Shown: piece by piece, positions 8,159 to 24,083 of the stretch
How the letters are laid out: each line of letters begins with the position of its first letter
Numbering within the stretch: position 1 is the first letter of the stretch
From: Eubacterium sp.
Lineage (GTDB): Bacteria > Bacillota > Clostridia > Lachnospirales > Lachnospiraceae
DNA: 28,255 nucleotides
Reading direction: 5' to 3'
Assembly (NCBI GenBank): GCA_020844525.1
Contig: JAJGAH010000002.1
Coordinates: forward strand, 1 to 28,255
The notes under the pieces: model-generated
The model's input: only the letters and a program-made list of their open reading frames with translations
Databases searched by the model: none
What the model was told of the DNA's origin: nothing
Translations under genes and position numbers: made by a program

Positions 8159-9493
8159 TCATGCGTTTTTCCAAAGACCTTTAAGTCTGGTCCTTGCCTC
8201 AGTATTCGGGTATCTGTCGCTGTAATACTCAATCTTCGATTTAATCCCCATTGATTCTAACTGCGAACGGATTTCTGTATAATACTCATTACAGATAAAA
8301 ATTCCTGTATCTTCAGGCAAGTTCTTCAGACTCTCAGGAGACTTAATCTCCAGTCCACAAAACTCCTCACCCCACCGATTGCTATTGTTATCACAGGTAA
8401 AAAGTGGAGGATATTTCTCACCGTAATCCATCATGTAATTCCGGCACATATTGCCAGCGCCAAAAAGCACCACATGAGAATACTTAGAGATAGTCTGCTC
8501 CATCGTAAGCTGCCAGACAAAGAAGTCAGAAACAGTCTTAGCAAACGCAATAAGCTGCGGCCATATAAATACCGGGAATGCTGCTAAGGTGTCTGACATT
8601 GAAAAAATAACCGGCCCGTCATATTTTATTTTTCTAAGTCCACGAATAACTGAACGCCAGTCTGTATCAGCATTAGCCAGGTCTCCACCAATTCCACGTG
8701 ACGCGCAGGAAAACGGCAGCATCTCGCAGTCTTCATTTCCATTGTTATCAGTGAGAATAACTGCATCTATATAATTACCAAGTACTGGTGTGATCTCATC
8801 GAGATCCTGGCCACAGACATTTACATGGCCGATATTAAGGCAGAAACCAAAGGCATCTCTGCCAATTATATTTCTGGAATCTTCGTTAAGCTCATTGAGC
8901 CATTCAACAGCCTCGTCTGCATCAGAAAGTATTCCTCTGACCAAATGCCCGCTGTGGTCACGGCATTGATTCTGCAATAGAATCTTAAATTCTTTATCTG
9001 GATGCTTTTCAGAATACTCCTTTAGTATTGGAATAAAAGACCTGTAGAATTCGATATTTACATCTTTTTCTTTCTCAAGCGGTATACCAACAAAGAGCGG
9101 TGGCACAATACACCACTTGCAGCCAGACTCCATCGCACACCTGACACTTGATGCTGAGAGTACGCGCTGGTAATCATTCATAAGCGGATTCGACCTGTCA
9201 AGCGGGATCACTGGAGCCATTGCACCTTTCACCTGTATACCATTACTGTTACAGGCATCAAGAAACGGCTTAACCGTCTCACCAATCCTTTCAGGCTCAT
9301 CTGGAAGAAAAACCTCTCCCTCGGCCTTTGCATCATTACGGCTTCTAGTCATATGTTTAAAAATTCCTGGTGGACAGGCATTTCTGAAATCAAGCAGTGC
9401 ACCTGAAAAGCCAGCCTTCCTGACATCAGAAATATTTCCTTTAGGCTGTTTGAATCGTTTGAAAAGCCCATAAGTATCAAAAATTACATCCAT
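8159..9493 (-). CDS. Degenerate TIM-barrel epimerase paralogue fused to C-terminal Rossmann-like module, 444 aa
   Basis: Residues 1-~325 align by eye with the neighbouring 313-residue isomerase (GFCLNIGHVNVCGQDLDEI against GFCLDTGHANIAGIDLERF), but the metal-site residues have changed: Glu to Gln174 (LLQNQC), Asp to Asn220 (CLNIGH), the HIH pair to ILT (246-248) and Glu to Ser298 (IFSMSD). This suggests a non-catalytic barrel or one with a different chemistry. Residues ~340-432 carry the module shared by this operon: VVLFGAGNMCRNYM, LFTCDNNSNRWG, LEIKSPESL, then IRSQLESMGI. The start ATG at 9493 follows AGAAAGAG. It lies 46 bases after the 802-residue multidomain gene and 83 bases before the intact paralogue. 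It might regulate or scaffold its active neighbour; this is inference. Confidence 0.8.
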   Translation of the reverse strand: MDVIFDTYGLFKRFKQPKGNISDVRKAGFSGALLDFRNACPPGIFKHMTRSRNDAKAEGEVFLPDEPERIGETVKPFLDACNSNGIQVKGAMAPVIPLDRSNPLMNDYQRVLSASSVRCAMESGCKWCIVPPLFVGIPLEKEKDVNIEFYRSFIPILKEYSEKHPDKEFKILLQNQCRDHSGHLVRGILSDADEAVEWLNELNEDSRNIIGRDAFGFCLNIGHVNVCGQDLDEITPVLGNYIDAVILTDNNGNEDCEMLPFSCASRGIGGDLANADTDWRSVIRGLRKIKYDGPVIFSMSDTLAAFPVFIWPQLIAFAKTVSDFFVWQLTMEQTISKYSHVVLFGAGNMCRNYMMDYGEKYPPLFTCDNNSNRWGEEFCGLEIKSPESLKNLPEDTGIFICNEYYTEIRSQLESMGIKSKIEYYSDRYPNTEARTRLKGLWKNA

Positions 9494-9539
9494 AATCTTT
9501 TCTCTTTCTAAAAAGCCATATTTTAAAAAGCCGCATTCA

Positions 9540-11948
9540 CTAGCCCTTTAACAGGCTCTCCCTGATTTGTGTAGAGCTTGTCCCGTTAGTATATGGAAGA
9601 AAAACGAGCTCAGACCCGTGCCCTTCGAGATATCTCTTATCTGCCAGCCAGCCCGAATCCTGTGCGTAATCACTTCCTGAAAATTGTACGTCAAAGTGGT
9701 ACATATTGTAAATATCCCTGGTGCCGGCCATGTCTATCGGTATCTCAAAGACCTCATCCACATATCTGCAGGCCTTTACGATCTCCATTCGATCCCTGCA
9801 TGGTATTACAGGCTCTCTCTTTTTTGAGCGTCTGACCTGCTCATCTGAGACAACCCCTACAATCAGGTAATTGCACTGCTCCTTCGCGCGTCGAAGAAGA
9901 TTCAGGTGTCCTATATGAAAGAGATCAAAGACGCCAGCCACATAACCCACATTGTATTTTTTTGTCTGGCTCTGGTTATTATCTGACGTGGCTACATCAA
10001 CCGGCTCTTCATTTTTATAAGAATTTCTCTGCCATGGCAGCTCGTATGATCTATGCCTGTAGTAAACTCCTATATGCCTCGCACCAAGAGATTTTGCCTG
10101 TTCATAGGCGTCCTGAAACCTGAGCATACATATTATTACTTTATATGAATCAGGGTCATGGTCTTTTAAAACATCAGGCGGGAAGACTTTTTTCCCATGA
10201 AAATCCGTTCCCCACTTATTCCTGTTATTATCAAGAATCCCGGCGATTTTTAGATGCTTACTATAAATCTCAAGAAAATACGCCGCATACTGACCGGCAC
10301 CAAATACGAAAACCTGAAGCCTGTCAGTATCCTTAAAGATATTAAGGAAAATCTTCTCATACTCAGATTCAGAATAATTCATTCTAAGGCGATTATCGCC
10401 GATATTTTCATAATCACCTCTATGGGCAGAGTCGTATTCGCCAAGGAATGAAACATTTCGAAGCTTATGCGCGAAACTGTTTCCAATCGTATCCCACATA
10501 TTTCTGTATTGATACAATCCATACCGCTTCAGCATCTCGTCCCTGCTGATAAATCTTGTAATCTGAGGCGTAGATAGAACACCAATTACTCTATCAAGCA
10601 GCGCATTTAGCGGATAATCATCAAACCTGAACTCCTGATCATAGAACAGGAACTCTCCATCACTTATAAAGCAGTTCAAAGGAACCATATCTATATAGCA
10701 ATGCTTCAGGCATATCCCCAAGTCCGCCTCATCAGCATCCTGAAAAAATGAGCCATAGCCATTCTTTTTCAGAAAATCATACGCACTAACTTCTGATACC
10801 TCTGATGAGCTCTTTATATTCTCTATAAATCTGTCAAGTTCCTTAAAAAAGAGCTCTTTATCAGAATCAGCAAGTCTCGTAAAATGGCTCACACCATTTT
10901 CTGCATCAATAAAAGGCATTTCATATCCGTCAGAACTTAAGCAACCATTTACGACATGAATACCATGAGCATTCAAATCATCCTGTAAGGATACCATATC
11001 CTTTAGATGCTCTGTCCCCTCTTCATACAAAGGCTTCTTTATTACTTTTTCATCTCCAATACAGGTGGCAAAATCAAGTTTTCTGCCACGGTCCATTGTC
11101 AAGGTTACATGCTTAATATCATTAGCAGTTTCACGAAGCAACCTACCAGATAATTCAAATAGAAATCCATTAGCCATCTCATGGAAAAGCCTGCTGCCAG
11201 AAATACTCTGCAGAATCTGGTTCTCCTGCAGAAACACCGTATCCGGATGATTATAATCAGTAAAATACCGTCCAGAAATCTCCTCATTCGGAAAAGTATC
11301 CTCACGGTAAATCAATTGAGGAGCTTCAATAGACGGATACACCGAATAGCAGTGCCGGCATACAAGACCTGCCCCATCAGTCATTCGTTTGATTTCTTCA
11401 TTGGAATAGCATCTGCCATCCATCTGGCGGAATTCATTTTCATCTACCCTGTAGTAATCCTCTATACTGTCGAAATTACAGCCAGTAAACTTATCTCTGT
11501 CTCCACAGAAATACCTGAGACCAAACCTGTTGTCAGTTCCCAGGAGAAAAATGCCATCCTTCTTCAAATAATCAGCTAAGATTTTAAGCAATTTTTCGGG
11601 CACATGGCAGTACTCCAATACTCCGATGCAGATGATATAATCGTATTTATCAGTATCATCTTTTTTTAATTCATTCTTATCAGATATGTACTCCTGATCT
11701 TTAGGTTCACTAATATCTAATAATGAAGAATCATCAATACTGTAGCTCGTTACATCCAGACCTTTTGATAAGAGAAACTCACGAAAAACATCTCCACTGT
11801 TTTCTCCCTCAACAAGTAATGCTCGAATCTTATGATCACTCTGTTTGTCTGTCATGAAAGGATACCAATTGATGATACCTAGAGGAAGATGATAAATGAT
11901 ATCCTGTGCCATTTTTTTTTGAATCTGTTCCTGTGCTTCTGTAAACAT
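9540..11948 (-). CDS. Four-domain protein: methyltransferase, kinase-like, Rossmann-like module, cytidylyltransferase (802 aa)
   Basis: Domains in order: a class I SAM methyltransferase-like region (about 40-210), with a degenerate glycine loop VEGENSG (46-52) and DYIICIGVLEYCH (103-115). Next is a phosphotransferase-like region (about 265-460), with Lys304/305 (KVIKKPLY), YIDMVPLNCF (Asp420, Asn425) and a metal-site-like YDQEF (Asp437). The shared module (543-640) follows, with VFVFGAGQYAAYF and GILDNNRNKWG. Last is a TagD-type cytidylyltransferase (about 666-802), with FDLFHIGHLNLL (His678, His681) and GTSSTQIRESL. Methyltransferase plus kinase recalls WbdD, which caps O-antigen chains in Gram-negatives. 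The ATG at 11948 lies two bases after the upstream stop with no clear ribosome binding site, so translational coupling is likely. An A9 tract covers codons 10-13. A role in making and attaching a phosphorylated or CDP-activated group is inferred. Confidence 0.82.
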   Translation of the reverse strand: MFTEAQEQIQKKMAQDIIYHLPLGIINWYPFMTDKQSDHKIRALLVEGENSGDVFREFLLSKGLDVTSYSIDDSSLLDISEPKDQEYISDKNELKKDDTDKYDYIICIGVLEYCHVPEKLLKILADYLKKDGIFLLGTDNRFGLRYFCGDRDKFTGCNFDSIEDYYRVDENEFRQMDGRCYSNEEIKRMTDGAGLVCRHCYSVYPSIEAPQLIYREDTFPNEEISGRYFTDYNHPDTVFLQENQILQSISGSRLFHEMANGFLFELSGRLLRETANDIKHVTLTMDRGRKLDFATCIGDEKVIKKPLYEEGTEHLKDMVSLQDDLNAHGIHVVNGCLSSDGYEMPFIDAENGVSHFTRLADSDKELFFKELDRFIENIKSSSEVSEVSAYDFLKKNGYGSFFQDADEADLGICLKHCYIDMVPLNCFISDGEFLFYDQEFRFDDYPLNALLDRVIGVLSTPQITRFISRDEMLKRYGLYQYRNMWDTIGNSFAHKLRNVSFLGEYDSAHRGDYENIGDNRLRMNYSESEYEKIFLNIFKDTDRLQVFVFGAGQYAAYFLEIYSKHLKIAGILDNNRNKWGTDFHGKKVFPPDVLKDHDPDSYKVIICMLRFQDAYEQAKSLGARHIGVYYRHRSYELPWQRNSYKNEEPVDVATSDNNQSQTKKYNVGYVAGVFDLFHIGHLNLLRRAKEQCNYLIVGVVSDEQVRRSKKREPVIPCRDRMEIVKACRYVDEVFEIPIDMAGTRDIYNMYHFDVQFSGSDYAQDSGWLADKRYLEGHGSELVFLPYTNGTSSTQIRESLLKG

Positions 11949-11950
11949 AT

Positions 11951-13276
11951 TTAAAAAATAAAAATATTATCGCTGTTAACTCCATATCCCAGCAACTGCG
12001 CCTCAATATCTATAGAGTTTTTCTTATTAGCTATAAAATAAACTACATCGCAATATTTTTCAACTGAGGTTTCTGGATCAACTATTAGGGCCTCATCTAT
12101 ATAGCTGTCATATTTTGACTTATCATTATCCACAAAGCAAAGTGGTTTCAGACCTAACGGAAGAACATATTCCTCAAGAAACCTTCTTCCTCTCTGACCA
12201 CTCCCGAAAATCACAAATGGTCTCTTCAGATTTAGGAGAGTCTCTTTCAGTTCTTCTTTTATGCTCTGCATCAGCAGATTCTCTGTCTTAATCTTTTCAC
12301 TATAGCTTTTCTGGTTATATGTAAAAAGCCATATATCCTTTAGCGATTCTCTTGTCAAATTGCTGAAAAGAATATTGCCTTTTTTCCATTCATTTCTGAT
12401 AAGTCGAGAGAACCACTCACACGGCTCCTTATAGAATGTAGAATCAATGTTATAATCCTCCGATATGAGAACTTTTTTTGATTCAGGCAATACTGTATCT
12501 ACAAGTCTTGTGACTATACACTTCCTGTGCGACTCAAATATCTCATCAGAGATTATCTGATTCTCAAATATCCTTTTCCATTCCTGATATGCATATATAA
12601 AGCACTTTTTATTCAGAGTTGATGCCCCTTCTCTATTCTCTGTATAAATATAGAACGGTTCATTCAAATACTCTGCTCTCTCCGCATAGCACAGGACCTG
12701 CGTAACAAACCCAATGTCCTGAAAAGCAGCACCAGCTGACTCATTTAACAGGATATGATTATCAATTATAAACTGCCTTTTATATATACCTGTCCAAATG
12801 CTCATATCCATAGTGTGCAATAGTGGCATCTGCTTTGGATTTAAGATATTATTATATAGCTTGTCAGATTCTAATATTTTCCTCTTATTTTTCTTTCCAT
12901 GAGAAAAAGCCAAATAATCACTCTTAATGAAATCAAGCTTATTATTCTCAGATTCTCCAAAAAGCTTCTCGAGCATATCGCTTTCTATCTGGTCATCCGA
13001 TTCAACTATGGAAATGTATTTTCCATTTGCCATAGATATTCCAAGATTTACCTGATAACCATAGCTTTTTTTATCACTATGAATAAGTGTAATTCTTGAG
13101 TCGCTTTCAGCTTCTCTCCTGATGACTTCAAGAGTGCCATCAGTTGAACCAGCATCGATGCAAAGTATCTCTATTTCCTTTAGTGTTTGAGTTCTGACGC
13201 TCTCAATACATCTCTGTATGTATTGAAATACATTAAGTGACGGTATTATTACTGACACTTTTTCTTCATAAATCAT
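11951..13276 (-). CDS. GT2 glycosyltransferase with C-terminal Rossmann-like module, 441 aa
   Basis: Residues 1-~230 form a family 2 (GT-A) glycosyltransferase, with VSVIIPSLNVFQYIQRCIES at the N-terminus, LCIDAGSTDGT (38-48) and the metal-binding VESDDQ (91-96, where DD occupies the DxD position). A helical linker precedes the module at 351-441: FVIFGSGQRGRRFLEEY, LCFVDNDKSKYD, IVDPETSVEKY and VVYFIANKKN. Such enzymes add a sugar from a nucleotide donor to a growing oligosaccharide at the cytosolic membrane face; the sugar is unknown. No membrane helices are apparent. The stop codon is two bases from the start of the 802-residue gene downstream, and the upstream GT4 gene ends 33 bases before its ATG, so it sits inside the operon. 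Confidence 0.88.
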   Translation of the reverse strand: MIYEEKVSVIIPSLNVFQYIQRCIESVRTQTLKEIEILCIDAGSTDGTLEVIRREAESDSRITLIHSDKKSYGYQVNLGISMANGKYISIVESDDQIESDMLEKLFGESENNKLDFIKSDYLAFSHGKKNKRKILESDKLYNNILNPKQMPLLHTMDMSIWTGIYKRQFIIDNHILLNESAGAAFQDIGFVTQVLCYAERAEYLNEPFYIYTENREGASTLNKKCFIYAYQEWKRIFENQIISDEIFESHRKCIVTRLVDTVLPESKKVLISEDYNIDSTFYKEPCEWFSRLIRNEWKKGNILFSNLTRESLKDIWLFTYNQKSYSEKIKTENLLMQSIKEELKETLLNLKRPFVIFGSGQRGRRFLEEYVLPLGLKPLCFVDNDKSKYDSYIDEALIVDPETSVEKYCDVVYFIANKKNSIDIEAQLLGYGVNSDNIFIF

Positions 13277-13309
13277 GCTATTCCAGTCATCCTTTAAAAG
13301 CTCAATTTT

Positions 13310-14776
13310 TTAGTCTGCCTCTGTTTCTAATAGGTTTTGATTACCAAAAATTGAATGTTTAGAATTCGGTCTCCAGTTTTTTATAGTTAATTCTATTTCG
13401 TTGTTTAATCTTTCACTAAATGAATCCATTGAATAGTGATTTAAATAAACCTGACGTGCATTATGGCGCATTTCTCCAAGATTTTCGTAATTTTCAGCCA
13501 CATATTTCATCTTTTCAGACAATCCTTTAACGTCCTCACCATGAAAGAGGAATCCGCTCTCACCATCAATGATGTAATCATTATCACCGGCAGTATCTGC
13601 TACTATACATACTTTAGCATTCATCAATCCCTCATTTACGGCAATAGGTAGTCCCTCATGCCTGGATGGACATACCACTACATCGATTTGAGGATATATA
13701 CTTTCCAACTCCTCCCTGCTCATTTCTCCCTTCCAGATGATATTGGGATTTTTATTAGAAAGTTCCATTACTTCATCAAAAAATTCTGATTTACTACCAG
13801 AACCTATCATCCAAAATTCTGCAGGTACATTACAGATTTTAAAATATTCCAGTGCTGCCTTCACAAAAACATCTTGTGCTTTTAATGTATATATGTTTGC
13901 AATAATTGCAAAGTTAATCTTATAATACTTGGATTTATCTTTTATCTTCGTATTGTAAAAATCTAATAACCCATAATTCATAATTGTTACCGGTAAATCT
14001 GGCCAAACAGAATTTAGATTATCTTTCACATTTTCACATACAGCAACCGTATGAATCCCTGTAAAACTAGGCTTAATAATATTACAATGATATATTATAT
14101 TTGTAATATGAATTATATCATTAGTTTCATGAACCCACCATAAAACTGGCTTTATCTTACTAAATTCGCAGGCAGCAGAAATATTTGTATATACGTTAAC
14201 TAACACAAAATCACAATTTTTTGCAAGTAACAATTCCTTTTTTCCTGGAAGATTTAAGGCTGGTGCCACTACAACAACAATTCCTTTTTCATTAATTTCT
14301 CTCACAAGTCTTAAATCAGCACTAGGTGCAGCAATACAGACTTTTTTATTATTATTTTTTAATACTAGCGCAGCAGAAATACATGCCATAGGTGCACCTG
14401 TGTAATTCAACTCATTACTAATAATAATAACATCTGCCGAGAAGTTGTGGACATTAGTTCCGTAATATTTAATTTCCCCCTGTTTTTTCATAGCAGTAAT
14501 AAATTCAAAAGAATAAATTTTACTCGCTGGAATTCCTAAAGAAATTAATTGATTATTGATTTCCTCAAAAAATTTATTGCTTACAGCAATAATAATAATA
14601 TCGTATTTAAATTTTGAAATAACATCCGGTGAGATAATCTTTTTGCCAATAAAGTCTTGTCCCCATAAAGAACTATTATTATCAGCAAAAGCTAAAATAT
14701 TAAATTCTTTAGGTAACATACCTACTCTTTTTTTCAGATATGTTCCTGTTCCAAATATGATTGTTCTAATCATCAT
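13310..14776 (-). CDS. GT4 glycosyltransferase with N-terminal Rossmann-like module, 488 aa
   Basis: The N-terminal ~100 residues are the shared module (IRTIIFGTGTYLKKR, LAFADNNSSLWGQDFIG, KIISPDVI, YDIIIIAV, INNQLISLGI). The remainder is a GT-B family 4 transferase: acceptor-side VIIISNELNYTGAPMACISA, donor-side FAIIANIYTLKAQDVF, and the E-x7-E signature in VVCPSRHEGLPIAVNEGLM, followed by DNDYIIDGESGFLF. It probably uses a UDP-, GDP- or CMP-type donor to extend the operon's oligosaccharide. The frame opens at GTG 14782, but AGAAGAAAG lies eight bases before the ATG at 14776, and another ATG follows directly at 14773; either could be used. A 100-base gap without clear signals separates it from the upstream rhamnosyltransferase gene. 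Confidence 0.9.
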   Translation of the reverse strand: MMIRTIIFGTGTYLKKRVGMLPKEFNILAFADNNSSLWGQDFIGKKIISPDVISKFKYDIIIIAVSNKFFEEINNQLISLGIPASKIYSFEFITAMKKQGEIKYYGTNVHNFSADVIIISNELNYTGAPMACISAALVLKNNNKKVCIAAPSADLRLVREINEKGIVVVVAPALNLPGKKELLLAKNCDFVLVNVYTNISAACEFSKIKPVLWWVHETNDIIHITNIIYHCNIIKPSFTGIHTVAVCENVKDNLNSVWPDLPVTIMNYGLLDFYNTKIKDKSKYYKINFAIIANIYTLKAQDVFVKAALEYFKICNVPAEFWMIGSGSKSEFFDEVMELSNKNPNIIWKGEMSREELESIYPQIDVVVCPSRHEGLPIAVNEGLMNAKVCIVADTAGDNDYIIDGESGFLFHGEDVKGLSEKMKYVAENYENLGEMRHNARQVYLNHYSMDSFSERLNNEIELTIKNWRPNSKHSIFGNQNLLETEAD

Positions 14777-14876
14777 AAGCACTACTTTCTTCTTAAATTG
14801 TAATCAATTACATGCAAATGAAAGAGCTGATATTTGGAAAATTTTATATGTCAAATGCATGAACATTTCGTCTAAC

Positions 14877-16160: not shown

Positions 16161-16203
16161 TTCACATCACCTTTTTAATTGCGCAGTTAAAAACGTCAAA
16201 TTA

Positions 16204-17922
16204 TTAACATTTTTCACTAAAAAGTCCTGGTACTTTTCGTTCAAGTTCCCATCGATAATAATTATTTATATCTATTAAATCAACTGCTTGATGATGCGAT
16301 CTGATAGTACCTAAATCAACAATTTTATCACTAAAAACAGGAGTTTCTAATACTTTTTCTAGTTCTGGCTTCGGTGTAATACCATCCTCTTCCATCATAC
16401 TAATATTTCTGAATTCTTCATGACTATATGTACCCCAATTCAAAATCTTGGTAAAGAAAACTTCATCTATTCCAAGCTGCTTGCCCCATTCTGCGAAAAG
16501 AGGCATCTCTTTATAATTCATCCTCTGTACTACAAAATTGAATCTAAGATATGATAGCTCTCCACTATGTCTGAGCTTTGCCGCATATTCCATATTTCTC
16601 TTTAAGATATCAAACCGTCCACCTCTCCTGATTTTTTCATATGTCTCAGGTGTCGCTGCATCTATAGAGACTGTCATCATTATTTTTGCATCAGTATGTT
16701 CTCTAAGCTCTTTCCATTTAGCAGGTGTGAACAGAAGTCCATTTGTCAGAAGTCTGAAATACTTGACATTCTTCATAGCTGGATCATCATAAATAGACTG
16801 ATAAGCTTTTGTCATCAGTACCTCACCATCACCAGCCATGATGAGAAATTCACATCCGGGTAATATCTCCTTTCTAAATGTGTCGGCAATACCTTGTATT
16901 TTTCTTTGATCTTCATCTCTAGCAAATCTATAATCTGAACGACATGTAATACACTTCAGATTACAAGTGTAATCAAAACCAACTAATACTGTATTGGGGC
17001 TATTTTCAAACCTTGGATATGGTTCTGCCAGATTGTATTGTTCACTTAAATGTCTTCCTACAAACAATGGACACATATCTGTCCTACAAAAAGAATATGT
17101 CCTGTTTACATTTGACAGACACATAATTTTATGTATATTTGAGTTCCAGAGAGCATGAAACTTATGAGTATTAACGATATATCCCAGACTGTTATCAATA
17201 AATGTGCTGCAGCAACAGATAGTATTGCCCTGACTACCTATTTCCGCATGATTTAACATTGTATTACAGTTGAAATCATACACCTTTTTTTCAAAAATGG
17301 TCTGTCTAAGCATCATACTAGGGTAAGACATAAAGTCATAAAACTTACAATAATCCTTATTATAAACAAGACCTTTGCTTTCCAGGAAATTGATTATATC
17401 ATCATTTTTTACAACTGTAACAATAATGAAGTAATCTTTCCAATCAATAATATCATTTGGCTTAACAATCTGGTAACCAAAAAGTTTTTCCTCTTTAGGA
17501 TTTGAGTCAATAACTTTTTCTACATCAAACCATTTATTCCATCGAATGAAAGCTTCCCCTTTGCGTCCAGCTCCCCAAATTAGAATAGGTTTTTTCTCCG
17601 GATTCAAAACTGAATCATCTAAAACATCGAAAAAATCTTCTTCATAAAAATAATCTTTTCCATATTTATAGCCAAGCTTATCTAAGAATTTAGTTTTAGC
17701 CGATTTATCAAAATCACAAACAATAATAGCATCAAATTTGTTTCTATTACCCGTTATTTCATTCTCTGATATAATCGGCGCTGAAATTATCCTATTAAAA
17801 TCTTTTGGTGTTTCATTTTTTGATGCAAAAGCTAGAGAAATATTCAGTTTATCGAAAATATATAAAAAATCTTTTGATACTCTGTTAATACCATATATCG
17901 CATAAGTTAAATTATGGTTCAT
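16204..17922 (-). CDS. Radical SAM enzyme with two N-terminal Rossmann-like modules and a SPASM-like Cys-rich segment, 572 aa
   Basis: Two modules are in tandem: 1-95 (LTYAIYGINRVSKDF, degenerate) and 111-197 (ILIWGAGRKGEAFI, KVIDSNPKEE, IVKPNDIIDW). A cysteine-rich part follows (ICCCST at 235-240, Cys268, Cys279, Cys284), with FHALWNSNIHKIM and FCRTDMCP, resembling a SPASM auxiliary-cluster domain. The radical SAM core comes last, with CNLKCITC (Cys320, Cys324, Cys327) in the CxxxCxxC pattern and MAGDGEVLMTKAY. In known SPASM proteins the auxiliary domain follows the core; here it precedes it. It may carry out an oxidation, epimerisation or dehydration of a sugar or peptide. The ATG at 17922 follows AGAGG and the upstream stop by a single base, so translation is coupled. 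Confidence 0.85.
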   Translation of the reverse strand: MNHNLTYAIYGINRVSKDFLYIFDKLNISLAFASKNETPKDFNRIISAPIISENEITGNRNKFDAIIVCDFDKSAKTKFLDKLGYKYGKDYFYEEDFFDVLDDSVLNPEKKPILIWGAGRKGEAFIRWNKWFDVEKVIDSNPKEEKLFGYQIVKPNDIIDWKDYFIIVTVVKNDDIINFLESKGLVYNKDYCKFYDFMSYPSMMLRQTIFEKKVYDFNCNTMLNHAEIGSQGNTICCCSTFIDNSLGYIVNTHKFHALWNSNIHKIMCLSNVNRTYSFCRTDMCPLFVGRHLSEQYNLAEPYPRFENSPNTVLVGFDYTCNLKCITCRSDYRFARDEDQRKIQGIADTFRKEILPGCEFLIMAGDGEVLMTKAYQSIYDDPAMKNVKYFRLLTNGLLFTPAKWKELREHTDAKIMMTVSIDAATPETYEKIRRGGRFDILKRNMEYAAKLRHSGELSYLRFNFVVQRMNYKEMPLFAEWGKQLGIDEVFFTKILNWGTYSHEEFRNISMMEEDGITPKPELEKVLETPVFSDKIVDLGTIRSHHQAVDLIDINNYYRWELERKVPGLFSEKC

Positions 17923-17923
17923 A

Positions 17924-19465
17924 TCAATTCCTCTCTAACGCCAATCTTAGTATTTCATCCAATGAAAGAATAATACAATTATCTCCAACCTTTTTCGCTA
18001 ACTTTTGCTTTATTCCTGAATAGTCATATTGAACTGTAACTATTATTAAATCTGGATCTGGAAGCTTTTCAGTTGGTCTGAAAACCTGTACATCTGGATT
18101 ACTTCCGGCTTTATTATCAATCGCCCCAATCAAATTAACTTTTTCTTTTTTTAACTGCTTTACCAAATGTTTTCCAAGCATTCCTATGCCATATATCATG
18201 ACTCTTTTGCCAGAATCCTCTGGAAAGCCATCTGATATTCTGCCATCATTTTCCATCAGACGAATCCATTCATCCATTATCTCCCAATAACCATGATACC
18301 TGTCACATGTCTTCTGAATCGCTCTGTTTTCATCTGATAGAATCAGAATCTGCTTTTTATAATCAAAAGTCACATTACTACTGGATGCTTTTTTTACAGC
18401 CGAAGAAACAGCCTCCAAAAACTTGTAGCCGTATCTCTCGTCTGGCTCTAAATACATCCCCTCGCCCCATTCATTCCAGGCATTTATAAAAACAAATGGA
18501 GATTTCATTTTCCTGGCTTTTACTATTATCTGAGTCATCAAGTGTTCAAAAAGTTCAGGGCTTCGTCCGTAAACTACCGAACCGCCATTTTCTCTACGCG
18601 GTGTATCATCATAGCCTGGAAATGCTCCAAGACACTGTCCCTCTTCAGTCGGCTTGAATATCATTTTTTCACAGATTTCAGAGTAATCAATAGCTGACAT
18701 TACACCCTTGCCATTGTCAAACTTTCCTGTAAAAAATCTGCTCATTGTATCCTGAGGTTCCTGCAAGGTACTACATGATAAACCTTTTGTCTTGTAATCT
18801 CTAGTATTGGCACCAATAGAAAATATACCATCTAATCCATCACTTCTTGCTAATTCATTCCAAACATCAAGCATCTCTTTTATACACGAGATTTTATCAG
18901 TCTTATAAAACATAAAAACCGGGCTATTCCCTACCTTGATATATCTCGGATCCATAAAAAATGGTCTTAAATACTCATAATGGTTGATCCAGTCCTGCTT
19001 ACTGCCATAATCCTGTTCTAGAAGTATCCCAGAATCATCCTCGCCAGAATATTTTCTGTCGAACTTTGCTGACCATGGATTTCCTTCCCCCTCAGACATT
19101 TTACTCCAAGAACGAACCCAGGATTCATTTGCCCAAGAGAAGCAAAATGGCATGTCGATGTCTTTCCACCTTAATAGATTTTCTGCTGGTTTTTCAAGGA
19201 TTTTTCTGCCATCTTTGAAATAATAATGATAGATACACATTCCATCAATACTATATTTTTTCATGAGATTAGCCTGCTGCTGCATTACAGTTTTATCCAT
19301 TAAATCATAGTAGTTATGATTCAACGGTACATTTGGTTGCTCATGACCATCAAACAGCGGTCTTGCAGCCTTAACAGCTACCCAGTCTGTAAATCCCTCT
19401 CCCCACCATTTATCATTTTCAGGTACTCTGTGATATTGTGGAAGGTACATAGCAATAATTCTCAT
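17924..19465 (-). CDS. WbsX/GH99-like glycan biosynthesis protein with C-terminal Rossmann-like module, 513 aa
   Basis: The N-terminal ~370 residues are a WbsX-family protein (GH99-like TIM barrel found in O-antigen and capsule loci): IIAMYLPQYHRVPENDKWWG, GFTDWVAVKAARPLF, PFCFSWANESW, and FINAWNEWGEGMYLEPDERY. Members are annotated as glycosyltransferases or endo-mannosidase-like enzymes; the activity is unproven. Residues 420-513 are the operon's shared module (KRVMIYGIGMLGKHLVKQL, NLIGAIDNKAG, VFRPTEKL, PDLIIVTVQYDYSGIKQ). The frame is open further upstream, but GGAGGAGG lies six bases before the ATG at 19465 and the protein family begins there. The start lies inside the preceding GT2 gene, with a 47-base overlap. 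The stop is one base before the next start. Confidence 0.88.
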   Translation of the reverse strand: MRIIAMYLPQYHRVPENDKWWGEGFTDWVAVKAARPLFDGHEQPNVPLNHNYYDLMDKTVMQQQANLMKKYSIDGMCIYHYYFKDGRKILEKPAENLLRWKDIDMPFCFSWANESWVRSWSKMSEGEGNPWSAKFDRKYSGEDDSGILLEQDYGSKQDWINHYEYLRPFFMDPRYIKVGNSPVFMFYKTDKISCIKEMLDVWNELARSDGLDGIFSIGANTRDYKTKGLSCSTLQEPQDTMSRFFTGKFDNGKGVMSAIDYSEICEKMIFKPTEEGQCLGAFPGYDDTPRRENGGSVVYGRSPELFEHLMTQIIVKARKMKSPFVFINAWNEWGEGMYLEPDERYGYKFLEAVSSAVKKASSSNVTFDYKKQILILSDENRAIQKTCDRYHGYWEIMDEWIRLMENDGRISDGFPEDSGKRVMIYGIGMLGKHLVKQLKKEKVNLIGAIDNKAGSNPDVQVFRPTEKLPDPDLIIVTVQYDYSGIKQKLAKKVGDNCIILSLDEILRLALERN

Positions 19466-20657
19466 TGACCTCCTCCAATTCTTGTAATTTTCTTTCAGTA
19501 TATTCAGAATCAATCCATTTCTCTTCAACTCTTAAAATTTTTTCTTCTGGAATTCTCTCATCTAGCAAATCATTTACAATACTGTCAGCAGTATTAGGAT
19601 TTGTCACTGCTATGATCACATAATCAAATTCCATCTCTAGCAATTTATTTACAGGAGAAACATGCTTTCCCAAAGATTTATAATAAGAATACTGCCGATC
19701 AACCCACCCAGTGAGCACTAGATTTTTTGGAAACTTATCATGTATTTCTTCTCCAAATACACCAGCACCGTAAATGACAATTCGTTTACCAGGTAATATT
19801 TTTCCAAACGGATATAGTCCAAAAAAATCGCTAAAATACTCATATCCGCCCAATAATAAATTTTGAATAATAAGCCAGTCTATTTTCTTTTGTATGAATT
19901 TATAATTTCTAATGCTAGTAGCAATTGAGTGTAAAATAAACCCCCTCAATAATTTTTGATCAACTACCGTACTTTTTGTATGTAAATGATTGCAAGATGA
20001 TGCTTCTTGACGATAAAAATACGTAACACGTGGTAAAAAAGCGACACGTTTAGCACTAAGAAGACTGTATATCGTACACCCCCAATCCTCTCCATAACGA
20101 ATTCTCATATCCATTTTCATAAATGACTCTTGAATAATCACCTTCGAAAAAAGAACTGGAAACAAAACACCACCTAATTGCATTTCAAAAAAGCGTGGTT
20201 TGAGAAAATTTTCCAAAACCTCAATGCCTGATATTACTCCTGATAAAACTTGAGATTTTCTTCCATATTTTCCATCCTGATAACGCTGTTGAACTCCGAA
20301 TACAATATCGGCACCTGTTTTAGATTGTACCTCCTTAAAAGAACTACAGTAATCTGCTGTGACAAAATCATCAGCATCAACAAACATCACCCAATCTCCT
20401 AATGCATGTTCAACACCATTTTTTCTTGCAGCATTCTGCCCTCCATTTTTTTGATATATATAACGAAATCTCCCGTCCTCTGAAATATATCGATGGCAAA
20501 TGTCTGCTGTTCTATCCTTTGACCCATCATCTATTAAAATAATCTCTATATTTGAATAATTCTGAGTTTTCAGACTATCTAGACATTCCACTAAATTTCG
20601 TTCACCATTATATATAGGTACAATAATTGAAATCAGTTTATCTATTTTCCTTTCCAA
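19419..20657 (-). CDS. GT2 glycosyltransferase with C-terminal Rossmann-like module, 412 aa
   Basis: GT-A family 2 signature: LISIIVPIYNGERNLVECLD, ILIDDGSKDRT and the metal site VMFVDADDFVT (Asp94, Asp96, Asp97), then a family-typical FGVQQRYQDG and RYGEDW. Residues 290-~385 are the shared module (KRIVIYGAGVFGEEIHDKF, LTGWVDRQYSYYKSLG, FDYVIIAVTNPN, LLDERIPEEKIL). The start is TTG at 20657 by reading frame; there is no ATG before the first conserved strand and the ribosome binding site is weak (GCGGA), so the exact start is uncertain. The last 15 codons overlap the start of the WbsX gene in another frame, and the ribosome binding site of that gene is encoded by the LEEV part of the C-terminus. 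A 79-base gap separates it from the radical SAM gene upstream. Confidence 0.86.
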   Translation of the reverse strand: MERKIDKLISIIVPIYNGERNLVECLDSLKTQNYSNIEIILIDDGSKDRTADICHRYISEDGRFRYIYQKNGGQNAARKNGVEHALGDWVMFVDADDFVTADYCSSFKEVQSKTGADIVFGVQQRYQDGKYGRKSQVLSGVISGIEVLENFLKPRFFEMQLGGVLFPVLFSKVIIQESFMKMDMRIRYGEDWGCTIYSLLSAKRVAFLPRVTYFYRQEASSCNHLHTKSTVVDQKLLRGFILHSIATSIRNYKFIQKKIDWLIIQNLLLGGYEYFSDFFGLYPFGKILPGKRIVIYGAGVFGEEIHDKFPKNLVLTGWVDRQYSYYKSLGKHVSPVNKLLEMEFDYVIIAVTNPNTADSIVNDLLDERIPEEKILRVEEKWIDSEYTERKLQELEEVNENYCYVPSTISQST

Positions 20658-20736
20658 ATAATATCCGCTATATTACAACATTTTCTATATGCATGTCTGA
20701 TCTTTATTGTTTTCTATTAAATTTCAAAATAAATCA

Positions 20737-21918
20737 TTATGATTTTTTGGTTGCAAACATACATTTTCTACATATCACACTTTCATCTAACTCATTGTTC
20801 ATTTTTTTGATAATATTTGTCATTACCTCAGAATGCTGTATTTCATCATATGATTCTGTATTCAAGTTACCTAATACATAATCCAAACCGAAGTCATTAC
20901 AACATAACACCAATGATCCATCTGGCAAAAGCACATTATGATTTAATACTCTTGACCTGCTGCAAGATATTTTCCCTGATAAATGTTTTGATACAAGTTT
21001 ATTATTGTCATTTTCCAAATTTCCCGCTCTGTCACTCATTTCACAATAAATTTTCAATTTTCCTGAAGTAATTGCTGTTACTTTTTCACTAGGTTCAAAC
21101 TGACAATTTGCGCCAGTCAAAAATGGTGTACCATCAAGTCTTTTTGCAGCAACAATCTTCCTTATTTTACTCAGATATTCATCTGTCACTGGAATATTGG
21201 CATAACCAAATCTATCAGTTGTATGTAATACTACTTTTTCAAATGGAATTTTCAAAATTTTATCAATACCATCTTCATCTATTCCTTGCAGAGTAGTAAA
21301 TAGTGCCTGTTTAAAGCCTTTATTATTAGCGTATTCCATCATTTCTATAGCTTCTGGATTAAAAAAAGGTTCAACAAAGCCTGACCAGTCTAAGATTGTA
21401 TTCTCCGGAATCTTATCCATGAATTGCATAAAATCTTCAAGTGTCATCATGGATTTTCTATGATTATAATTTTTATAATATCTATCAAGCAACAAACTCT
21501 GTGGACAAAACTTACAGTTAACCGCACATCCGATTTTTGGAGTCACCTCAATAATCGGGCTATTAAACCTAAGTTTCTCTTCGTTATCTAACATCAAAAT
21601 CCATTCAGGTAAAGAAACAATCTCATTAATTCCTGCTTCTCTTAAGCTATTTTCAATATTATTTTTACCATGCTGTAAAACACCCATTACTACAGATTTC
21701 TGACCTATAGCGTTAATTAATTTTTCATAGCTTAAAACATTCAAGTCATCAACAATGGTTTGGTTATCTTTTAAACTAGTAACACAAAAACCTGAAATAT
21801 TTATGTTGTTCTGTCTGCATAATTTTAAAACTATTCGTCCTACTTTGCCTGCGCCATATATATACCTAGGCTCTGGTAAATTTATAATCTCATTTATATA
21901 GCATGCTAAATTATCCAT
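20737..21918 (-). CDS. Radical SAM/SPASM enzyme with N-terminal Rossmann-like module, 393 aa
   Basis: Residues ~15-110 form the module (PRYIYGAGKVGRIVLKLC, ISGFCVTSLKDN, LNVLSYEKLI, SVVMGVLQHGKNNIENSL). The radical SAM core starts near 120, with CAVNCKFC (Cys131, Cys135, Cys138) in CxxxCxxC form, LDWSGFVEPFFNPEAIEMME as the GGE-like region and KVVLHTTDRFGYAN. The C-terminus is a SPASM-like domain with CSRSRVLNHNVLLPDGSLVL then CCNDFGLDYVLGNLN and a final CRKC. The architecture (core, then SPASM) is the usual one, unlike the other radical SAM protein in the operon. AGG precedes the ATG at 21918 by seven bases. It lies 14 bases after the GT32-like gene. A sugar- or peptide-modifying role is inferred from context; the substrate is unknown. 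Confidence 0.87.
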   Translation of the reverse strand: MDNLACYINEIINLPEPRYIYGAGKVGRIVLKLCRQNNINISGFCVTSLKDNQTIVDDLNVLSYEKLINAIGQKSVVMGVLQHGKNNIENSLREAGINEIVSLPEWILMLDNEEKLRFNSPIIEVTPKIGCAVNCKFCPQSLLLDRYYKNYNHRKSMMTLEDFMQFMDKIPENTILDWSGFVEPFFNPEAIEMMEYANNKGFKQALFTTLQGIDEDGIDKILKIPFEKVVLHTTDRFGYANIPVTDEYLSKIRKIVAAKRLDGTPFLTGANCQFEPSEKVTAITSGKLKIYCEMSDRAGNLENDNNKLVSKHLSGKISCSRSRVLNHNVLLPDGSLVLCCNDFGLDYVLGNLNTESYDEIQHSEVMTNIIKKMNNELDESVICRKCMFATKKS

Positions 21919-21932
21919 AAAAGTACCTAAAT

Positions 21933-22967
21933 TTATTTAAACCAACTCATATTACCATGATGAATCCAAAAAGTTTTATCTGTTACCTTAACCTTCCCTG
22001 AATGTTGATTTTTCCCTTGAAAAATCATAGGATAGATATTCATTCCATCCACATTTTGAAACTTATTATTAATTTCTATTCCATATTTTATTAAAACTTT
22101 CAATGAATGAGTTCCACAGCTTGTTTTATCAACGCTTCCATCTTGCCTTACAAATTTACAATCATCATAATAATCACGTAATTTTCTTATAATATCCATA
22201 TTAGGTACGCTTCCGAAGCCAGAGCCAAGATTCATTGTCAAACTTCCATCTATGCACCCAAAACATTTTTGAAATAATAGTTGATCGGGCTTTTTAATTA
22301 ATTCTATATCTGTATCTAAATATATACCTCCATACTTATAAAGAACGTCAAGTCTTAAGTAATCTGGAACAAACCCCCAAATTTGTTTTTGATAAGCCTG
22401 ATACATATATTTATTCTTTTTAATATCATAATTGCTTTCATTCCACTCTATAAATTCATAATCAGGGCAAAGTTTTTTCCAATTTTCGATGTTTCTTGTG
22501 ATAGATTCGGGTTTATTTCCACCAAACCAAGCATAGTGTATTATTTTTGGAATTATTGGGTTATCATTCTCTTTTGAGGGAGCTAGATATGTAGAGCTTT
22601 CAAGCTCGACATCCGAAGTTTCATCCAAAGAAGCAACCTGAATATCTACACCTGATAAAATATTATTTAAGCCCTCATAAATTTGTTCATAGTAAATACT
22701 TGTTATTAGAATAAAAATTTTATCAGGATCATAATTCAAAATATCTTCTGCAGAAATTATTGGGATATCTTTACCTTGATAAGAGACACTACCTCCCACT
22801 TTTGAGCGATTATTATCTGCATAAGCAATCAGATTATCTTCTAACCCCCAAATATAAAAGTACATTGCTACTCTTTGACCTTGAAGGCCAGTACCAAAGC
22901 ATATTACTTTTTTTCCTTTTATCAGTTCCTTTAACTGATGAATTGACATTGGTTTGAGTCTTATCAT
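21933..22967 (-). CDS. GT32-like (DXD) glycosyltransferase with N-terminal Rossmann-like module, 344 aa
   Basis: Residues 18-~110 hold the module (KKVICFGTGLQGQRVAMYF, IAYADNNRSKVGGS, IPIISAEDIL, KIFILITSIYYEQIYEGL). From ~137 the protein is a Gly_transf_sug/GT32 (OCH1-like, capsular polysaccharide synthesis) transferase, with IPKIIHYAWFGGNKPE, PDYLRLDVLYKYGGIYLDTD (DTD at 218-220), LNLGSGFGS-like MNLGSGFGSVPN and WIHHGNMSW at the end. Such enzymes use UDP-sugars and a divalent metal. AGAAGGAA lies upstream of the ATG at 22967. The intergenic gap to the FkbM gene is 71 bases with no terminator. No membrane anchor is seen. Confidence 0.88.
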   Translation of the reverse strand: MIRLKPMSIHQLKELIKGKKVICFGTGLQGQRVAMYFYIWGLEDNLIAYADNNRSKVGGSVSYQGKDIPIISAEDILNYDPDKIFILITSIYYEQIYEGLNNILSGVDIQVASLDETSDVELESSTYLAPSKENDNPIIPKIIHYAWFGGNKPESITRNIENWKKLCPDYEFIEWNESNYDIKKNKYMYQAYQKQIWGFVPDYLRLDVLYKYGGIYLDTDIELIKKPDQLLFQKCFGCIDGSLTMNLGSGFGSVPNMDIIRKLRDYYDDCKFVRQDGSVDKTSCGTHSLKVLIKYGIEINNKFQNVDGMNIYPMIFQGKNQHSGKVKVTDKTFWIHHGNMSWFK

Positions 22968-23038
22968 ATATTCCTTCTCTGCTCTTTATTCATTTTCTAT
23001 TGTAATAACATTTACAAACTAACAATTTTTTGCAAATT

Positions 23039-24010
23039 TCAAATATAAAGCATAATATCTTTTCTAGCTAAAATAATATTCTCTACTGTACGAGCATACA
23101 CATAATAGTTGCTCATAAAATCATATTCTTTATCAGTATCAGGAGCCTCAAAAACGATAACTTTAAAAGGCCATCGTTTTAAATCACATGACTGTAATAT
23201 ATCTATATCAAGTCCTTCTACGTCCAAAAAAAGAATATCTGGAGCCTCATCAAAATTTTCACTCAATATCTTATTAATCGGTTCTACCTCAACATTAATC
23301 TCTTCGCACTTATATCCTCTATCGATTACTTCATTAGCCAATGATTTCGAGAATGTTGAATGTCCCAAAAGATTAGGAAACATATAAAATTTCGCAGAGC
23401 TAGAACTGATGTCCCCCCCCGCTCCCATTTTTAAAAGTTTATCTTGTGGTCTATAATCTTCTATCAAATCCCAGCAAGTAGGATTGGCCTCTACCAAAAC
23501 TCCTTTATAATCCGGCATCGTTGAAAACAATTCATTTAACAGATAAGAATTGTTTCTAAAGACAGGATGACATACACCTATTTCTAAAAACTTGACTGAT
23601 TTGAGAGCGATTTGCTGAATCAGCGAAAATACCAACAAATCTTCGCATGATTTACCATTAATTTTTGGAACTACATGTCCAGATTTAAGAATAATATCTA
23701 CCAAAGGATAAATAATAACATCTATCTGTCCGTGGTCGAATGGTTTAATCTGCTCTAATATTTCTTTCTCGTATATTGCATAAATAACAACTAACACTTT
23801 ATTGCTCTCAAGTTCAAGAGCATCAGGTCCTTTTACTATTACCCCATTAATAGTTTTTCCAACATTTTTTTCAGTTCCATCAATAACATAATCCATGTCG
23901 AAATAGTCTTGTCTATAATGAAGACGAAAAAGCATTCCTGTTCCCCAACCTATCACTTTACTATATTTCGATTTTAATTCATGATTAGTTATCCTACTAA
24001 AATATCTCAT
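23039..24010 (-). CDS. FkbM-family methyltransferase with N-terminal Rossmann-like module, 323 aa
   Basis: Residues ~12-110 carry the module (SKVIGWGTGMLFRLHY, DYVIDGTEKNVG, VIVKGPDAL, KVLVVIYAIYEKEI). Residues ~125-323 form an FkbM-type SAM-dependent methyltransferase: VKFLEIGVCHPVFRNNS as SAM loop, GVLVEANPTCWDLI, then INVEVEPINKILSE and DILFLDVEGLDIDIL, the hallmark D-x-E-G segment. It would O-methylate a sugar. The frame extends 17 codons upstream, but AAGGA is placed ten bases before the ATG at 24010 and the module begins just after it, so this start is preferred. A run of eight G residues (plus-strand C8 at 23413-23420) lies in the methyltransferase part at MGAGGDI and could allow frame switching. 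The downstream gene follows after 71 bases. Confidence 0.87.
   Translation of the reverse strand: MRYFSRITNHELKSKYSKVIGWGTGMLFRLHYRQDYFDMDYVIDGTEKNVGKTINGVIVKGPDALELESNKVLVVIYAIYEKEILEQIKPFDHGQIDVIIYPLVDIILKSGHVVPKINGKSCEDLLVFSLIQQIALKSVKFLEIGVCHPVFRNNSYLLNELFSTMPDYKGVLVEANPTCWDLIEDYRPQDKLLKMGAGGDISSSSAKFYMFPNLLGHSTFSKSLANEVIDRGYKCEEINVEVEPINKILSENFDEAPDILFLDVEGLDIDILQSCDLKRWPFKVIVFEAPDTDKEYDFMSNYYVYARTVENIILARKDIMLYI
23413..23420 (-). repeat. G8 homopolymer within the FkbM methyltransferase gene
   Basis: Eight consecutive C on the plus strand (G8 in the coding strand) encode Ala-Gly-Gly in the FkbM methyltransferase. In an AT-rich gene this is unusual and is the kind of tract that gains or loses bases by slipped-strand pairing. 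In the present state the frame is open. Confidence 0.9.
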
Positions 24011-24083
24011 AGAAATCATTTCCTTCCATATTTCTATCTCTTTTATTGTAAACAGGCACAAAATATTAAAACAAATTATACCT

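Follow-up and report, generated by a model that had tools for sequence, protein, structure and literature searches.

A small Rossmann-like module on eleven neighbouring glycan-assembly genes of a Eubacterium species

The gene array

The window analysed here is a 28,255-nucleotide stretch of a Eubacterium sp. genome of the family Lachnospiraceae (assembly GCA_020844525.1, contig JAJGAH010000002.1, positions 1 to 28,255). Within the window, the same small Rossmann-like module is found on eleven neighbouring genes that build or decorate glycans, with twelve segments in total (Table 1). A first-pass annotation, made by a model from the sequence alone, had pointed out these genes and segments by eye, and all of them were recovered where it had placed them: the module is N-terminal in six proteins (g04, g05, g06 with its two copies, g09, g10 and g11), C-terminal in four (g01, g03, g07 and g08) and internal in one (g02). 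Calling the partners otherwise unrelated was a slight overstatement, as two partners are GT2 enzymes of a single cluster and another two belong to the radical SAM enzymes. The reading frame of the FkbM gene (g11) begins at 24061 by its first start codon, a position that had been given as 24010, and the true start of g07 is probably the ATG at 19465. The adjoining TagF-type gene is module-free in the window, and a class of TagF relatives in other genomes bears the module. The type A flagellin modification of C. difficile is a phospho-N-methyl-threonine, whose genes encode a methyltransferase, a nucleotidyltransferase and a TagF-like protein; g02 and the TagF gene may echo this set.

Table 1 Genes, module segments and module-free neighbours in the window
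Feature	Position	Strand	Evidence
g01, xylose-isomerase-like TIM barrel + C-terminal module	8159..9493	-	Pfam AP_endonuc_2 2.5e-9
g01 module	8198..8488	-	alignment; held-out E 8e-15
g02, methyltransferase, APH-like kinase fold, module, cytidylyltransferase (802 aa)	9540..11948	-	
g02 module, internal	10041..10328	-	held-out E 5.5e-16
g03, GT2 glycosyltransferase + C-terminal module	11951..13276	-	Pfam; module HMM
g03 module	11954..12232	-	held-out E 9.2e-12
g04, GT4 glycosyltransferase + N-terminal module	13310..14782	-	Pfam; module HMM
g04 module	14498..14773	-	held-out E 4.9e-18
g05, rhamnosyltransferase-like GT2 + N-terminal module	14877..16160	-	Pfam; TIGR01556 under cut-off; module HMM
g05 module	15810..16085	-	held-out E 1e-8
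g06, radical SAM enzyme + two N-terminal modules	16204..17922	-	Pfam Radical_SAM; module HMM
g06 module copy a	17620..17919	-	alignment; marginal alone, E 0.052
g06 module copy b	17326..17598	-	held-out E 1.1e-7
g07, WbsX-type protein + C-terminal module	17924..19528	-	Pfam Glyco_tran_WbsX 2e-116; module HMM
g07 module	17945..18214	-	held-out E 3.8e-10
g08, GT2 glycosyltransferase + C-terminal module	19419..20657	-	Pfam; module HMM
g08 module	19515..19796	-	held-out E 2.3e-8; PglD_N 21.9 bits vs cut-off 23.4
g09, radical SAM/SPASM enzyme + N-terminal module	20737..21918	-	Pfam; module HMM
g09 module	21595..21879	-	held-out E 1.4e-10
g10, GT32-type glycosyltransferase + N-terminal module	21933..22967	-	Pfam Gly_transf_sug, Caps_synth; module HMM
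g10 module	22617..22922	-	held-out E 3.9e-10; Methyltransf_14 24.1 bits, cut-off 23.5
g11, FkbM methyltransferase + N-terminal module	23039..24061	-	Pfam Methyltransf_21; module HMM
g11 module	23693..23971	-	held-out E 1.6e-5
TagF-type glycerophosphotransferase, module-free	24084..25346	-	Pfam Glyphos_transf
LicD family, module-free	25330..26271	-	Pfam scan
Cytidylyltransferase-Gfo/Idh/MocA fusion, module-free	26329..27690	-	Pfam scan
TIM barrel, module-free	7134..8075	-	Pfam scan

Homology of the segments

Chance resemblance was assessed with HMMs built from the other window segments and run against the 20 window proteins together with 2020 shuffled or reversed decoys. The held-out segment was recovered in 10 of the 11 genes (E<=1e-3), the FkbM gene being marginal at 0.083 against a best decoy of 0.14. 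With relatives from other genomes added, and each window protein held out, all 11 genes were recovered at E<=1.6e-5. Even then, the first copy of g06, the 572-aa radical SAM enzyme, was marginal (E 0.052, 11.0 bits, against 6.9 bits for the best decoy); this copy is degenerate, with the second loop glycine and the acidic residue lost in the alignment. The nine module-free window genes, one of which has a true NAD Rossmann domain, gave a best E of 15 with the window-only HMMs and 25 with relatives added, and the Gfo/Idh gene gave 20 and 25, respectively. Profile-profile comparison of 17 partner classes placed 109 of 136 pairs at a probability of at least 90, with a median of 96.7 over 81 columns. 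The lowest pair reached 0.27; among the pairs listed, nearly all low ones involve profiles of 4-6 sequences, four of which the TIM-barrel class profile fails to match. Two single-sequence controls, both weak, reached at most 19.6 (SDR) and at most 27.3 (Gfo/Idh, except 70.8 against the standalone class). The held-out HMMs with their decoys and the class profiles rule out chance resemblance, and the observation made in the first-pass annotation is confirmed.

Nearest known domains

Sequence and fold comparisons are best read as placing the module among small Rossmann-like accessory domains, as kin of those of WbaP/FlaA1 (PF13727), PglD/NeuD (PF17836) and C2185-like proteins (PF22674), with ligand binding predicted. 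The likeness to PglD_N and CoA_binding_3 named in the first-pass annotation holds for the fold and for remote similarity of sequence. For PglD_N, the cut-off of 23.4 was reached by none of the whole proteins (g08 21.9 bits, g02 17.5 bits, the other nine without a listed match); in a translated search of the organism's own genome, the g08 stretch scored 23.9 bits, just above it. PglD and NeuD join this domain, at their N terminus, to a left-handed beta-helix (LbH/hexapeptide) sugar acetyltransferase, whereas a Pfam scan of the eleven window genes found no such acetyltransferase domain. The module has the same fold as PF13727 (CoA_binding_3, the WbaP DUF), a family with no Pfam match in the window proteins or among the 15 families of the scan of excised modules. 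In WbaP/FlaA1-type proteins (PDB 8t53, 3nkl) the domain is part of one enzyme and comes after a membrane bundle of four helices, whereas the module occurs on a variety of enzymes encoded in one gene cluster. The elements listed for the AlphaFold2 model of the g04 module (14471-14773, 101 residues, pLDDT 95.1) include none that corresponds to the beta-hairpin of WbaP. C2185-like_N (PF22674) also has the same fold. Against its Pfam cut-off of 27, the excised g04 module scores 27.4, whole g04 24.5 and g08 15.4, and 70 of 100 modules had no match to this model at the threshold used. The solved protein of that family (PDB 2g6t), which its family name and organism suggest to be CAC2185, is titled uncharacterised. 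The C-terminal domain of C-methyltransferases (PF08484) is matched above the Pfam cut-off by the g10 module, and the 4rv9 profile gives E 0.0039; here, such a domain is borne by glycosyltransferases, radical SAM and other enzymes.

Domains of proteins that bind nucleotides or CoA, namely Rex, WbaP, succinyl-CoA synthetase and the PerB acetyltransferase, are among the closest folds and profiles. Enzymes of the classical NAD(P) type are matched by the module profile as well (1.6e-5 for dihydrodipicolinate reductase and 3.9e-5 for a shikimate dehydrogenase fusion), so more than one class of ligand is conceivable. In addition, 2-Hacid_dh_C is matched by 9 of 100 modules (E<=0.01), and Foldseek finds the inositol dehydrogenase 3cea (8e-4); descent from NAD(P) Rossmann proteins, or a ligand in common with them, is possible. 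Here, one domain type marks most genes of an array across many enzyme folds and is also found as small anchored proteins, where the relatives met in the PDB and in the literature are single enzymes. A literature search weighted to open journals found no paper on a module common to such gene sets.

Recurrence in related genomes

The module system is not confined to the window, and the array pattern is repeated in related gut bacteria, mostly flagellated ones. Recurrence in operons with more than five copies had been proposed as support, and more than five module genes were found in 46 of the 59 loci longer than 20 kb around one array gene (39 of 51 once ten near-identical loci are removed). These ten are among the 80 named loci; they were dropped from the analyses of within-locus similarity, ORF coverage and multi-TM proteins and kept in the 46/59 count. 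The module is borne by 394 of the 502 ORFs of 220-900 aa that lie between array ends on the same strand. The kinase part and the module occur together on 81 ORFs in the 80 loci kept; the 563 places found by g02 patterns need not all be full g02 genes, as both patterns lie in the cytidylyltransferase part. Care must be taken with genome-wide counts of hits, which include Rex repressors: 19 of 43 hit genomes have only Rex-sized ORFs (about 210-250 aa) by open-frame reading. Large counts are lower bounds, since the first genome survey scored at most 17 candidates per genome. The set of 303 modules contains one Rex and one PglD-like acetyltransferase, spotted by eye.

Sampled module genes are mostly glycosyltransferases, TagF, FkbM, TIM-barrel proteins and other methyltransferases, and the module-free genes interleaved with them often encode SDR epimerases/dehydratases and nucleotidyltransferases. 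The module is mainly found on assembly and decoration enzymes and less on makers of nucleotide sugars. This division of labour is not strict, because the 60 sampled module-free interleaved genes include 8 GT2, 4 GT4 and one each of WbsX, TagF and DUF4422. The array pattern hints at a control or assembly part common to the whole pathway.

A probable flagellin glycosylation setting

Flagellin was found in 39 of 39 family genomes with at least six hits and in 70 of 73 with at least three; in a sample of genomes lacking hits, the figure was 12 of 40 (Fisher p 4e-12 and 6e-14, respectively). The three hit-bearing genomes that lack flagellin (G127, G159 and G180) have three hits each. In the window's genus, the figures are 3 of 3 genomes with at least five module-profile hits, some of them Rex-sized ORFs, versus 1 of 13 others (p 0.007). 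The window's own genome has flagellin on another contig (G000:C24) and so counts as a flagellated host; flagellar genes, flagellin and Maf included, were not recognised on the 28-kb window contig. Flagellin or Maf lies within 50 kb of 17 of 34 arrays, one of these by a weak Maf-like match (G321:C42, 36 bits), and the other half have neither within that distance on their contig. The 34 are the arrays fetched or read off in genomes searched for flagellin, some known by a single module position, and the crude expected flagellin proximity of 9-12% comes from assumed cluster numbers, with no simulation. For instance, the array of G203 adjoins a dehydratase, Maf, flagellin, FlgN, FliS, FliD, FlaG and FlgK. 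By a crude hydropathy threshold, 31 multi-TM ORFs were found in 25 of 80 loci, only 4 of the 31 between array ends, which within these loci weakens a canonical lipid-linked capsule locus.

For the gene set, the likeliest identity is a glycosylation island for flagellin or a similar cytosolic protein. The first-pass annotation was right about recurrence in other operons and had not foreseen this setting. Flagellin glycosylation islands of Clostridium and Geobacillus likewise have variable gene sets beside flagellin, in many cases with Maf; the available text of these reports mentions no shared module (PMC13317340, PMC5109656), and the window contig differs from them in its lack of recognised flagellar genes.

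Predicted ligand and possible functions

Of 432 modules from 18 partner classes, 418 and 413 retain the respective GxG glycines, and 343 have an acidic D after strand 2. Conservation of this loop and acidic residue favours a ligand. Class-balanced conservation is 1.48 at the ligand edge, 1.53 in the core strands and 1.05 in the helices, a comparison of secondary structure only. In the available text of one report, UMP, UDP and UTP stabilise the WbaP domain, UMP inhibits full-length WbaP (4.1 uM), and a role as one-size-fits-all regulator is put forward for the domain (PMC10942596). Among the relatives met in the PDB and in the accessible parts of papers, a reported ligand was seen only for WbaP. 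The reading we prefer, with a probability of about 0.4, is an accessory domain of the WbaP-DUF/PglD_N kind that responds to a nucleotide and is common to the enzymes of what are often flagellin glycosylation islands. The module would bind a nucleotide common to all steps; a nucleotide or nucleotide sugar of the uridine or cytidine type is the likeliest, with NAD also possible. The module would then tune or position its own enzyme, so that the whole pathway could respond to a single pool, in line with the proposal made for WbaP. Against this stand the V found in place of D in 72 of 432 modules and the lost loop of g06 copy a. Nor is it obvious that the radical SAM, FkbM and TIM-barrel partners would use nucleotide sugars. 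If the module does sense a common nucleotide, it would be a pathway-wide control point for flagellin and other glycans in gut Lachnospiraceae.

The history of the module bears on how its copies could act. Modules on the same enzyme type in other genomes have a mean column score of 1.58, and within-locus similarity is 0.623 versus 0.617 +/- 0.007 for permuted loci, with 104 of 500 permutations reaching the observed value. Spread by duplication inside this operon is thereby rejected; of the earlier picture of a shuffled module, recurrence on many enzymes stands and the spread of one module over this operon is not supported. As grouping follows the partner enzyme and not the operon, the modules are old fusions, and a common small ligand fits better than an operon-specific docking code. 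Strong grouping by partner class would also be seen if each fusion aided only its own enzyme, for example by closing over the donor, a role that may apply to C-methyltransferases whose C-terminal domain is similar; the array would then reflect how common such fusions are in these enzymes. Similar domains do occur singly on solved enzymes (FkbM 2py6, the mycarose C-methyltransferase 4rv9, WbaP). Such a partner-specific part is nevertheless unlikely, given the small copies without a recognised catalytic domain and a module that is N-terminal, C-terminal or internal on many folds and covers most ORFs of the arrays.

That module carriers act mainly on the growing glycan could also mean that the module holds a nucleotide- or phosphate-linked carrier of that glycan, much as assembly lines recognise theirs, and genes for a cytidylyltransferase, TagF and LicD, within the array or adjoining it, suggest building blocks linked through phosphate. 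We consider this very improbable: Pfam recognised no carrier gene in the window, and if these are flagellin islands a carrier is not expected, since Maf-dependent glycosylation, in the available text of one report, acts on flagellin before chaperone binding and export (PMC4065374).

The main rival of a response to a common nucleotide, our preferred reading, is docking. The loci contain 38 small module proteins, four cut by the locus edge and some near-identical, and 25 have a hydrophobic N-terminal segment; a Pfam scan of four gave no match. Docking stays a live option because some copies are anchored and have no recognised catalytic domain. Modules would bind each other (homo- and heterotypically) or a membrane-anchored standalone module, and so gather the enzymes into one assembly at the membrane, possibly close to the flagellar export gate. 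Tandem module copies exist, carriers are mostly enzymes of the growing glycan, and the domain makes most of the inter-chain contacts of WbaP in the text available (PMC10942596). We regard docking as possible and rather doubtful, since modules show no operon-specific similarity and the helices are less conserved than the ligand edge and core strands. Both ideas can be merged into a universal plug, in which anchored standalone modules would nucleate a multi-enzyme flagellin glycosylation factory, enzymes would dock via the same domain with the bound nucleotide as switch, and pathways could be re-programmed by swapping module-bearing enzymes between islands; this is speculative and unlikely. Docking would provide a simple addressing system for glycan enzymes. 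On either reading, enzyme coordination becomes testable with small soluble domains, and the module can be used as a sequence marker to find glycan-assembly genes. A helix upstream of the module, seen in relatives and not reported for g07, is common to WbsX-class relatives and the anchored standalone proteins.

Reality and spread of the module

The first-pass annotation had placed a Rossmann-like module of about 90 residues on eleven consecutive genes (g01 to g11), and this holds. The twelve excised segments could be aligned, with one invariant glycine and a second nearly invariant. Leave-one-out HMMs, run against 20 window proteins and 2020 decoys, recovered 10/11 held-out genes at E<=1e-3; for g11, which encodes the FkbM methyltransferase, the result was marginal. 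Adding relatives and again holding out each window protein brought all 11 genes to E<=1.6e-5, leaving copy a of the radical SAM gene g06 as the sole marginal segment (E 0.052). The nine module-free window genes, one of which has a true NAD Rossmann domain, stayed at E>=15 (window-only HMMs) and E>=25 (relatives added). Because held-out genes are recovered while module-free genes stay at high E, the module is real and chance resemblance can be ruled out. The 20 listed window ORFs of >=150 aa are all encoded on the minus strand. The window is a complete contig (C2, 28,255 bases) of an assembly (2.53 Mb, 384 contigs) that is 69% complete.

A profile search of GTDB genomes with g02, the methyltransferase/kinase-fold/module/cytidylyltransferase gene, found relatives of the whole gene or of a part of it at 563 or more positions. 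The 80 loci kept are, going by record titles, mostly from Lachnospiraceae, and Selenomonas ruminantium HD4 and other Selenomonadaceae are among them. The closest named record among the matches listed is L118 (Lachnospiraceae MAG, LCO1), with 95% identity over g02. The module is present on 498 of 1262 ORFs in these loci, and more than five module genes occur in 46/59 loci longer than 20 kb (39/51 with near-identical loci removed), bearing out the suggestion that such operons recur. Since the longest same-strand run in these longer loci is 11, the row in the window is among the longest without being unique. Of 299 genomes sampled in the family, 162 match at least once at E<=1e-6; three or more matches occur in 73 and six or more in 39. 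Up to 17 candidates were scored per genome, and the repressor Rex adds single matches. Across the phylum, 43 of 249 genomes match at E<=1e-8, 19 of them judged Rex only.

Partners and evolution

Same-strand ORFs of 220-900 aa between array ends number 394 with the module and 108 without. The partners in 60 module genes, hand-picked from 100 sampled with most g02-class members left out, include GT2 (23), GT4 (6), TagF, FkbM and TIM barrel (5 each), as well as GT8, GT32/Caps_synth, GT-D, GT10 and other methyltransferases. In 60 interleaved module-free genes, the best 25 of 42 families, in overlapping categories, include SDR epimerase/dehydratase (11), MobA-like NTP transferase (8), IspD (5) and NTP_transferase (3), but also GT2 (8), GT4 (4), WbsX, TagF and DUF4422 (1 each). 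As carriers are mostly transferases and module-free genes are often SDR or NTP-transferase genes but include some GTs, the module marks mainly, not exclusively, steps on the growing glycan.

Compared across loci, modules score 1.58 per column when their partners belong to one enzyme class and 0.62 when they belong to different classes; different classes within the same locus score 0.623. When loci were shuffled within classes, the value was 0.617 +/- 0.007, and 104/500 shuffles reached the observed same-locus score. Likeness follows enzyme class and not locus, contrary to the first-pass picture of a module shuffled over one operon; on this comparison, modules appear to travel with their enzymes. 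Recent duplication within the operon is rejected, as same-locus modules are no more alike than those of shuffled loci. The same values speak against an operon-specific docking code, and a docking role, ranked second, is rather unlikely; a general docking surface may still be offered.

Conservation and possible function

Conservation was assessed in 432 modules; these come from 71 loci that include the window, after removal of ten near-identical ones. An aromatic residue precedes the two loop glycines, which are conserved in 418 and 413 modules. At the position that follows strand 2, 343 modules have D and 72 have V. Ligand-edge loops and strands show a class-balanced relative entropy of 1.48 and 1.53, versus 1.05 in helices and 1.01 in other loops. 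The sequence pattern is that of a nucleotide-type site retained whatever the partner, and is compatible with various ligands. The V-type modules form a second subtype, common on RgpF- and Caps_synth-type partners, and may bind another ligand.

The closest relative with reported biochemistry that was met is the WbaP domain. It is reported that uridine nucleotides stabilise this domain, that it makes most inter-chain contacts and that the enzyme is inhibited by UMP (4.1 uM); a general regulatory role is proposed for the domain (PMC10942596). For EpsZ in complex with a response regulator, the corresponding domain is reported to contribute to the modelled dimer interface (PMC12802240). Because of the WbaP-domain biochemistry and the EpsZ interface, we tentatively favour a shared nucleotide-responsive accessory domain (probability about 0.4). 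Partner-specific help to the module's own enzyme, ranked third, is improbable, and carrier recognition, ranked fourth, highly so.

Small anchored module proteins

The 80 loci also encode 38 small module proteins without a recognised catalytic domain (four cut by locus edges, a few near-identical); in 25 of them the module is preceded by a hydrophobic segment at the N-terminus. Many are 157-171 aa long, with one such segment, a helical stretch and then the module; the table gives three examples. The upstream helix is common to small proteins, WbsX-class relatives and one GT4-class relative. A Pfam scan of four small proteins gave no match, and no module match was seen in a small ORF of the window's own incomplete genome. 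The fold itself is already known, with single relatives in the PDB. A module shared by most genes of an array of this type, together with anchored copies that lack a recognised catalytic domain, was not found described in searches of an open-access library.

Flagellin and Maf setting

Multi-TM ORFs are few (31 in 80 loci, 4 of them between array ends), and flagellar genes were therefore looked for. Flagellin (PF00669) is present in all 37 genomes asked first (34 with at least six matches, three with four or five) and in 33/36 other genomes with at least three, including the remaining five with at least six. Within the family this gives 39/39 genomes with at least six matches and 70/73 with at least three, versus 12/40 without a match (Fisher p 4e-12 and 6e-14, values that are too small because related genomes are not independent). 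Maf (PF01973) is found in 17/37 first-asked genomes versus 5/40 without a match (p 0.002). Flagellin or Maf lies within 50 kb on the same contig for 17/34 arrays checked. For example, the neighbours of the G203 array are dehydratase, Maf, flagellin, FlgN, FliS, FliD, FlaG and FlgK. By BLAST, flagellin-like genes occur in 8/80 named loci: L131, L137, L144, L149, L150 and L151 (these last three near-identical), L188 (match confined to the C-terminus) and L195.

In the window's genus, flagellin is present in 3/3 genomes with at least five matches versus 1/13 others, some matches being Rex-sized ORFs. A flagellin glycosylation island is likely for the window itself, and stays at that strength because the genome's flagellin sits on another short contig. 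Flagellin was not found in G127, G159 and G180 (same family) or in G014 (window's genus, 77% complete), each with three module-profile matches. The module may therefore be used for other glycans as well.

The core enzyme g02 and neighbouring genes

Pfam names a methyltransferase and a cytidylyltransferase in g02, which also has the module, and leaves the middle part unnamed. The model of this part (residues 196-538, pLDDT 91.9) matches APH-fold small-molecule kinases, a predicted assignment at fold level and no pointer to drug resistance. The kinase part and module occur together in 81 ORFs of the 80 loci. The cytidylyltransferase is closest to ethanolamine-phosphate and glycerol-3-phosphate enzymes; on that basis, g02 is a candidate for making a methylated CDP-activated group. 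TagF-type transferase and LicD genes adjoin the array.

The window's genome has a second module cluster, L031 (G000:C20, 13 kb). Its module genes encode an unnamed protein of 741 aa that weakly matches HAD, a GT4 and a third product of 455 aa, and adjoin WbsX, LicD and ribulose-phosphate 3-epimerase genes.

Positions of features in the window and in related loci
Feature	Position	Remark
g02	window 9540-11948	
V-type module, example	window 21595-21879	
WbsX (g07) and upstream GT2 gene	window 17924-20657	listed ORFs overlap 110 bases; about 47 with likely WbsX start at 19465
AAA_14/DUF4143 ATPase	window 4562-5878	within glycan locus; possibly recent insertion
Cytidylyltransferase-Gfo/Idh/MocA oxidoreductase fusion	window 26329-27690	beside LicD and TagF genes
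Small anchored module protein	L113:3221-3697	
Small anchored module protein	L097:7633-8115	
Small anchored module protein	L156:2665-3141
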